Shown in pieces: positions 55,337 through 58,614 of a stretch of 64,000 nucleotides of DNA. The stretch's first letter is position 1, and each line of letters begins with the position of its first letter. The translations under genes were made by a program, and so were the position numbers. Where the stretch lies: contig DXHU01000016.1 of the NCBI GenBank assembly GCA_019113245.1, positions 1 through 64,000 on the forward strand, written 5' to 3'. Below the pieces are notes generated by a model. The model saw only the letters and a list, made by a program, of their open reading frames with translations. It made no database searches and had not been told where the DNA came from. The stretch comes from Candidatus Ornithospirochaeta avicola (GTDB lineage Bacteria > Spirochaetota > Spirochaetia > Sphaerochaetales > Sphaerochaetaceae).

Positions 55337-55372
55337 ATAAAAAACCCTTCAGCCATAATCTGACTGAAGGGT
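55337..55372 (-). terminator. Terminator of the large lipoprotein gene
   Basis: On the minus strand cccttcag ... ctgaaggg with an 11-base loop, followed by a T-run. It ends the 55393-58456 transcript. Confidence 0.9.
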
Positions 55373-55392: not shown

Positions 55393-58300
55393 TTAATAGC
55401 CCATGCTTAAAGCCTTCCAGACTCCATCAACTCTTATTCCTCTTTCCACTTGCCCTGTAATTCCATCAATTGTATAGTCAAAATAATATTCTTTGCCATC
55501 TACTGTGACTGGTCCATGCAGTGACAAATATGAATACATTTTTGAAGGATCAGGATTTTCTTCACTCATTCCTGTAGTGTCAACATCCATAGTCACATGC
55601 AATCCTTCTGATGAATATGAGATATTTTCATCATAGGTATAGACTTTGAAGTCTTTTAGAGATACCAGATATTCATGGTTCTGAATCATAGTATTCATTA
55701 CAGGATCTATTACATCCATCTCATAATTTTTTATGTTGATAACAACGTTTTCACTCAGAGTAATATCCTGACCAAAGAGAGCTTTGACAGCATTTGTTTT
55801 GAACATAGCCACATTTGCATCAGAGCTTATGAATGTACAAACAGCATCAGCTATGGCTAAAAGATGTTCATCGTCAATGATTGTTTCATCTGATATAAGA
55901 GTTCCGTCAGAATCTGATTCTGATGGAGTGTACTCATACGTTTTCCCCTCATATGTAAAATAAATCTTTATATCAGAAAAACCTTGAACTTGGTGCATAT
56001 AGCTGTTCTTCAGAATAGTCACATCTGCAGAGAAGTATTCGTATTCCCCAGATGTTTCATTGTAAATTTCAGCGGTCACCTTCTCTTGATAATCATTTAT
56101 TACAGTTGCTTCTATTTCGAAATCAGACATTGTAATACTCAGATTTCCAACAGTTTCATTTTGTATATCTGCATTACTGTAGATTGCCTGCACCGGAAGA
56201 TAAGTTATGTCAGACTTCACAATAGTGGTAGCTGTTTCCCACTCTTCAGGTGTAGTCTCATGTCCCATATCCTGATATTCCTCAGTAGGCATTACTGGAG
56301 GATCAAGAGGTTCTGGAACGCATGCAACACCGTTTAAGTAGAAAACTCTGTTGACGCAAGTGACTTTAAAAACATTGTTTTCTGAATCTTGGATTGTTAC
56401 ATCAGCATCTGTCACCTCACCAGTGTAATAATTAATAGTTCCTTCTCCCCAGAATATGTAGGATTCTGTCTGGTGTCCTGACATCTTGTAGGTGATGCTT
56501 CCGTCGTCATTTTCTATTGTCTCAAGGCGTGAGCTTCCTGGGCTCTGAATCAGCTCTGAAAGGACAGAGTTTACGTAAGATAGCTTATCATCTCCAGTTG
56601 CGCCTCCAAAGCTTTCGTCTGTATTCACTTCAGGTGGAGTAGAAGGAATCACGACAAGCACTTCTCCGTTAAGAGTATAGGAGTCTCCTTCTGCTTTTAC
56701 GGTGAATGCATTTGCGTTGCTGTCTTTTACAGTGAGATCGATGCTTTCTCCATTCTTTGTTCCCCAGAAAGTGTAGCCTCCGCTTACATAACCATAATAT
56801 GTGTAGCCAGTTTCTGTTTTCTCAGCAGTCCTGTTAAGATTAAATGAGCCGTCAGATGTTTCATAGAACGTGATGCTACTTTCATCAAGTGAGGAAAGAA
56901 CAGTTTCTACAAATTCTATCTTGCTGTCATCTGTATTTCCTCCAACGCTGTCACTTGCGTTTTCTGGCTTTTCTGCTGCAGCTGATGCCTCAATAGAAAC
57001 AGAAACTGGAGTATCTGCTGTCCATTCATCTTCTCCTGATTTTACAATCCAATAAAGAGAGAGACTACCATTCAAGTTTTCTGGAACAGCAATCTTTCCT
57101 TCACTAATCTGAAGTTCATTCTCATTTGCTTTTACAGCTACACTTGCGCTCTCTGGTGCGTTGAGCTTGTATTCAACAGAAAGAAGAGCTTTCTCTGGAG
57201 CCTCAAGAGGACTTACGCTGAAGCTTTCCATATCAGGACTGATATCAATTGAGGAAGAATAATCTTTTGTAACACCGCTTGCGTTGAGTGTGAGAGTAAC
57301 TGGAATATTCTTTCCAATTACAGATGGAGTGAATGTGGATGATGCAAGAATCTCCTCCTGTACTTTCCATACTGCGCTTGTTCCTTCTGGAATATCTGAG
57401 CCAGAATATGTGAGTGTGACTTCTTTGCCAAAAACAGCATCTGCTTCTGTTGAGATTGTAACATTATCAGGAAGTGTGACGCCTTCTATTACAGTAACGC
57501 TCTTGCTCTCACTCCAGATTATGCTGTTTTCTTCTACAAAAACTGTTAATGTGAGTTTCTCTCCCTTGCTGTAGTCTGTAATATCCTTAGAGAAAGTTGA
57601 AGAGTTTGCATTCTCAACCTTCACTCCATTGATATACCAGGAGAACTGAGGAGATGAGAGATTGGTAACGCTTGCCTCAGCACTCAGTGTGCCGTTTGCT
57701 GCAATAGTTTCTCCTGATGTGATATCAAGATCAAGATCTGGAGTCCTTATGATCTCATCATTTATTTCCACATCAGCGAGCTCTCCTTCATAAGTGGTAT
57801 AGCAGAGTGTTGTCAGATCGCTATACACTCTTGCTGAATCAAAAACGATTATTTCAGCATCATTTGCCTTAATTGAGATTTTATAAAAGCCGTTTGATAC
57901 TTTTGCAGAACCGGAGAAAAGATTATTTTCATCTTTGCTGAGTGTCACTGTAGTTGTTTTATTTTTACTGTCCGTGATTTCTGCTGAAAGAGACTCTACT
58001 GAATTTGTCCCGTCTTTTATGTTGAAGGTTATGTCTCCTTTGCCTTCAACTTCTTTGATTGTAATTGTGCACTCTGCTGTGCTTCCGGGCGTTACAGTTA
58101 CACTAGTGCTTCCTTTTCCAATGACAAAATCCTTGCTATTCTTTGCTTCTGCTTCAAGCGCCCATTGTCCTGGAGCAATATTGTTGATTTCTAAAGCATT
58201 TTCAGAGCTAGGAATGTCATCGTAAACAAGGACAGATCCTGCTGGGCCCGTTGCCGTTATCTTATATTGAGATATCTCAAGAGGTGGCTCTATGCCTCTT

Positions 58301-58456
58301 GCTGAGACTTCCCCCCCCCCTAGAATTTTCGACGGAATTATTGATTCTTACATTAATCCCGCCTTTGGCCTCCGGAGATGTGTTGTCGCCATTACAGGAA
58401 GGAAACAGCACAGCCAGGAGACAGAGAAAAACAAATAGTATTTTTCCTCTCTTCAT
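55393..58456 (-). pseudogene. Large surface lipoprotein interrupted by a G10 tract
   Basis: Translation should start at ATG 58456, 7 bases after AAGGAG. The first 21 residues are a lipoprotein signal (MKRGKILFVFLCLLAVLFPS, then Cys21). At codon 47 a run of ten G (58320-58311 on this strand) shifts the frame and the peptide stops at residue 59. Removing one G (or adding two) joins it without a gap to a frame open to 55393, giving about 1020 residues: Ig-like beta segments (ISTEADAVFGKEVTLTYSGS) and two copies of a roughly 110-residue unit (SVGGNTDDSKIEF ... YTLNG and SFGGATGDDKLSY ... FYLNG). I infer a phase-variable lipoprotein caught in the OFF state. A sequencing error in the G-run is the alternative. 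Downstream, GTG 57948 would lack any signal. Confidence 0.75.
58311..58320 (-). repeat. G10 homopolymer, putative phase-variation tract
   Basis: Ten C on the plus strand (ten G on the coding strand), just behind the lipoprotein signal region. G9 or G12 gives the full frame; G10 and G11 give truncated peptides. The longest G/C run in the window. Confidence 0.8.
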
Positions 58457-58580
58457 ACGCTTCTCCTTTTTCTTTTAATGTACTCTCAGAGTCCATCAAA
58501 ATGTGCCATCTGTCAATATTTCTTCTTTTTGCTTTTAAGAAAAAGGATGGATGAGGGATGCAAATGGTGAAACAGTGTAT

Positions 58581-58586
58581 TATAAT
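58581..58586 (+). promoter_or_regulatory. -10 box before slyX-like gene
   Basis: Perfect TATAAT 28 bp before ATG 58615; the -35 is poor (ATGCAA at 17 bases). Confidence 0.35.
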
Positions 58587-58614
58587 TTTTGCCTGTAGGG
58601 TGTAATATCAGAGT

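Follow-up and report, generated by a model that had tools for sequence, protein, structure and literature searches.

A lipoprotein gene interrupted only at a G10 tract, a probable translational phase-variation locus in a genus of uncultured spirochaetes with many poly-G tracts

Poly-G tracts are known from the spirochaete T. pallidum, where those of tprE/G/J/L and tp0126 lie in promoters, the tp0126 tract being placed between the -35 and -10 boxes (PMC7864442). Promoter poly-G/C tracts occur also in Neisseria, in porA and opc, and that of porA controls the promoter spacing (PMC7864442), while the hmbR/hpuAB genes are ON only with tract lengths that preserve the reading frame (PMC3786947). In a survey of the Neisseria phasome, the cut-off for poly-G/C tracts was 9 and the modal length was 9 (PMC5953494). 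In Bifidobacterium breve, a pilus is switched ON and OFF by replication slippage (PMC9187656).

The locus described here lies on the minus strand of a 64 kb window, the whole stretch of DNA that was analysed, and to this strand all the coordinates of its features refer. It shares with the T. pallidum system a spirochaete host, poly-G tracts of about 7-11, surface proteins and many tracts per genome, and other tracts of its genome and genus were found, like that of tp0126, between -35 and -10 boxes (PMC7864442). However, the focal protein is a modular lipoprotein and not a Tpr or OmpW porin, and its tract lies in the coding frame, unlike the T. pallidum promoter tracts, so that control would be translational. 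The analogy with Treponema drawn in an earlier note on this DNA thus held for the mechanism, and failed for the protein family and for the tract position, which is promoter-borne in tpr and tp0126 (PMC7864442). A poly-G promoter switch of the tp0126 or porA type was ruled out at the focal gene, since the tract is within the ORF and not between -35 and -10 boxes. The frame-dependent ON state would be like that of the intragenic hmbR and hpuA switches (PMC3786947), although bacterium and genes are unrelated; compared to Neisseria, most tracts of this genus precede lipoproteins, in one stereotyped TTGACA-N8/9-G8-12-TANNNT layout. The pilus switch of B. breve (PMC9187656) is similar in that replication slippage turns a surface structure of a gut commensal ON and OFF, but it concerns pili, not lipoproteins, and a different phylum.

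As the earlier note had described, the gene begins with a good ribosome-binding site, AAGGAG (58463..58468), located 6 nt before the ATG at 58456, followed by a lipoprotein signal peptide, MKRGKILFVFLCLLAVLFPSC, with the lipobox cysteine Cys21 (58394..58456), and by exactly ten G (58311..58320), the proposed slippage switch, which lies 136 nt after the ATG. As assembled, this short frame (58277..58456), which would give the OFF product, runs over 59 codons and ends at a TGA (58279-58277), the stop at residue 59 that had been reported. The main body of the lipoprotein is in a shifted frame (55393..58310), open over 971 aa from 58308 to a TAA at 55395-55393, in agreement with the claimed 970 codons or so; it holds the terminal stop only, with 66 and 93 stops in the other two frames, and its codon usage is like that of the neighbouring genes throughout (+0.27 bits per codon vs -0.75 and -1.12 for the other frames). 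The first start codon of the body frame, a GTG, comes 363 nt downstream and has no ribosome-binding site apparent by eye before it, which bears out the lack of a good start, and the modulo-3 arithmetic by which G9 or G12 restores one protein of about 1020 residues was right. Downstream of the gene, an intrinsic terminator with a 12-bp stem and a T run (55344..55372) is kept in the sister species. A weak promoter candidate upstream, ATTACA-16-TATAAT (58579..58606), is present in the sister species too; the count of such promoter-like sites in the search was not above that in shuffles.

The tract is near the 5' end of the ORF and exceeds a poly-G/C threshold of 8-9 or more. The longest G or C run elsewhere in the window is 6 and the dinucleotide-shuffled window contained a mean of 0.39 G8 words, so that the focal G10 is not a chance occurrence.

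Search of the genus gave one full-length homologue, P0002 of genome G017 (CALXLV010000014.1, G017:C14), 34% identical and encoded in a single frame of 1030 codons, together with shorter relatives in G007 (P0003; CALXKU010000013.1) and in G034 (CASDRU010000010.1). The N-terminal piece alone aligned, signal peptide included, with residues 4-47 of P0003 (E 2e-9) and had no significant match in the G017 protein, whereas the body alone matched P0002 from residue 48 (E 2e-129; 32% over the whole length). The two pieces, the second with its 971 open codons, thus match adjacent parts of intact homologues in which they are contiguous, and the G tract is therefore the sole discontinuity of the focal gene. 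At the sequence level, these comparisons establish a single gene interrupted at the G10 tract only. Around the tract, the focal protein is longer than its homologues by a few residues, and the G007 homologue has an in-frame G8 of its own, immediately behind the lipobox. A clear homologue was absent from most of the 48 congeners and no close orthologue was found, the best full-length homologue being that with 34% identity; in the GTDB genome collection, close relatives of the body numbered 0 with single-sequence patterns and 3 with an alignment query. Another, related family of lipoproteins, about 690 aa long and free of tracts (L032 at G000:C4:101702-102136 in the focal genome, and relatives L023-L033), is common to many congeners and usually adjoins a small membrane-protein gene on the opposite strand.

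The N-terminal part of the focal protein exhibits the basic residues, hydrophobic stretch and lipobox cysteine of lipoproteins, all shared with the homologues; its lipobox, FPSC, is atypical, and those of the homologues read VPSC, LPAC and FTSC. The protein had been called repeat-containing, and this was partly right, as the body holds two adjacent repeats of about 110 aa (31% identity, E 3e-14), preceded by a predicted chain of beta-sandwich modules. An AlphaFold model built from 4 sequences, usable over approximately residues 10-660 with a mean pLDDT of 68, showed similarity at the fold level only, with very low TM-scores, to Ig-like modules arranged in chains, and we therefore make no functional claim from it. 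Membership of the Tpr / Msp outer-membrane family was rejected, with no homology found, Ig/PKD-like matches that were all sub-threshold in the Pfam scan and no relative in the PDB sequence search. The predicted features would suit a lipoprotein that is exposed and acts as an adhesin-like or decoy protein.

In the focal genome (G000; assembly of 1,498,588 bases, 96.9% complete), pattern searches for G/C runs gave 2, 5, 4 and 1 with lengths of exactly 7, 8, 9 and 10, respectively, so ten of at least 8, where about 1-2.6 are expected by extrapolation from the run-length decay of the window. The focal G10 is the longest. Tracts were found in the spacer behind a TTGACA-like -35 box at C6:1582, before an exported protein, at C9:21659 and at C23:250610; that at C11:2529 occupies the spacer of a TTGACA-17-TACACT promoter before a lipoprotein, and that at C23:236160 immediately precedes the ATG of a gene whose lipoprotein product has Listeria-Bacteroides repeats. 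The tracts at C3:40739, C3:42906 and C13:14944 had no clear target gene; the first two of these (L002, L003) have near-identical 60-bp neighbourhoods 2.2 kb apart, each with a G8, where the sister species has the interrupted AAGGGTGGG. At C13:10469-10476 (L009), a G8 is located between an HsdS frame of 421 aa, in which Methylase_S occurs as two stretches, and another Methylase_S segment in a different frame. This arrangement, a candidate for phase-variable type I restriction specificity, resembles the homonucleotide tract of the NgoAV type I HsdS, as cited in PMC5953494, a parallel that concerns this locus and not the focal gene.

G8 words were present in 48/48 genomes of the genus. The pattern TTGACN{0,10}G8 gave 161 matches in 37 genomes, overlapping words of one tract being counted separately, compared to 0 for the reversed control. 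Elsewhere in the family, it was found 45 times vs 0 in genus g2 and stayed at background (4 vs 3) in the well-sampled genus g16. Inspection of 30 sites, one per genome, showed a layout of TTGACA, 0-9 nt, G8-G12 and often TANNNT, in which most spacings were 16-20; 25 of the sites were followed by a lipoprotein signal peptide, and these lipoproteins belong mostly to unrelated families. The same kind of test was positive for 1/46 window genes. Near a lipoprotein start were 25/56 tracts vs 13/606 random positions, a difference for which p = 1e-20 is indicative only, since the loci are not independent, and for which both counts are probably low, since the signal/lipobox test is a crude pattern that misses the focal FPSC and the lipobox of P0003. 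The modal tract length was 9 in 40 sampled stretches from three congeners, and not a decay with length. Further intragenic tracts were a G8 in a G006 lipoprotein, in frame and 108 nt from the start of its ORF, and tracts within the ORFs of a Wzi-like protein, a glycosyltransferase, a C5 methylase and an Mrr/ResIII restriction enzyme. The C5 cytosine methylase ORF (L149, G007:C4:97600-101000) has a Hint/intein-like insert and carries a G8 and a G9, and the Mrr/ResIII restriction helicase ORF (L126, G005:C1:36700-39800) has a C9 run within its coding region. Tracts are thus over-represented at surface or restriction genes of the genome and clade; if the tracts of the genus have any effect, most would exert it through promoters.

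The sister species G034, 94-95% identical around the focal locus, lacks the segment 55449..58568, which is replaced by approximately 60 bp similar to an internal part of the gene; past the missing segment, the last codons and the terminator are kept. These remnants indicate that the focal gene is old and was lost in the sister, and that it is dispensable. Between the two species, compared with one composite DNA query that recovered only partial pairs, three comparable tract sites differ (G9/G8, G8/shorter and G8/interrupted). In G034, an IS-like end, TGAACTAACCCCCAAAAGGTAGAC, occurs near position 1501 of L075, L078 and L086 (C3:30761, C5:13061, C11:36784), with all three copies 2-5 bp from a C9-C11 run and two of the three preceded by the apparent -10 box and apparent gene of a poly-G promoter; the element either lands in poly-G/C tracts or carries one.

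The loss in the sister species and the scarcity of clear homologues among the 48 congeners would suit an early-stage plain pseudogene, in which the G10 frameshift is a fixed loss of function in a dispensable gene that has acquired no further lesions yet. We consider this unlikely, as the focal body has 971 codons with no other stop or further disabling lesion and native codon usage all along, the terminator is intact, and the lesion coincides exactly with the genome's longest G/C run, a kind of run that in this clade is the mark of surface genes. Homopolymers are the usual site of indel errors and the sequence comes from a single draft metagenome assembly, so the true tract might also be constant and in-frame and the gene ordinary and always on. 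Other long genes of the window are however uninterrupted despite A9 and T8 runs, which makes an error very improbable, and a one-base miscount would still leave G9-G11, around the genus mode of G9, which keeps the locus a candidate switch in any case.

Long homopolymers are known in principle to allow slippage, and if RNA polymerase slipped or ribosomes shifted frame at the G run, the gene could be expressed constantly at a low level with no genetic switching. The body is however in the +1 frame, out of reach of a -1 shift, and the tracts of the genus are mostly in promoter spacers, where frameshifting is irrelevant and which point to a change of DNA length; we regard such expression as slightly less probable even than an assembly error. 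A gene broken only by its G10, in a genus where the same runs occur at many surface genes, is very probably an on/off switch. Against this count the remnants in G034 and the intragenic position, the less common type in the genus.

We therefore hold it highly likely that the focal locus is a translational phase-variation (contingency) locus, assembled in the OFF state and one member of a genus-wide poly-G phasome. The contingency locus proposed in the earlier note gained support from the excess of G8-G12 tracts at surface-protein genes in genome and genus, from the second family member with its own intragenic G8 and from the divergence of comparable tracts between the sister species. In the proposed mechanism, slipped-strand mispairing at the G10 would change the tract length by whole bases, and only lengths that are multiples of three would join the signal peptide to the body of about 970 residues; the ON product would be an outer-surface lipoprotein of about 1020 residues, and the assembled G10 allele is OFF. 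Most other tracts of the genus are placed between the -35 and -10 boxes of lipoprotein promoters, and a few inside restriction-modification or surface genes. We infer slippage, its reversibility, surface exposure and selection by host immunity or phage, and switching at the focal locus is suggested by the clade-wide pattern and by analogy with the established cases of T. pallidum and Neisseria.

No paper describing phase variation in this clade came up in a literature search, and a genus-wide poly-G phasome of lipoproteins is seemingly undescribed. It appears probable that this genus and a neighbouring uncultured spirochaete genus run a large combinatorial phasome, in which tens of unrelated lipoprotein genes have independently acquired one stereotyped promoter, with G8-G12 immediately upstream of the -10 box, and which also includes switched restriction systems and intragenic switches like that of the focal gene, in organisms that are not known to be pathogenic. 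Genes of the focal kind will be misannotated as broken. The focal mechanism is ordinary, a known type of poly-G translational switch, and its place is new, so the wider interest is in the genus-wide lipoprotein phasome of uncultured spirochaetes rather than in the focal locus alone. For a 2025 review, it is a major open question why genomes with multi-locus phase variation appear to be confined to pathogens, a pattern that might also reflect database bias (PMC11868660). An uncultured, metagenome-derived spirochaete clade with genus-wide poly-G switching of diverse lipoproteins would make this question directly testable from existing metagenome reads.
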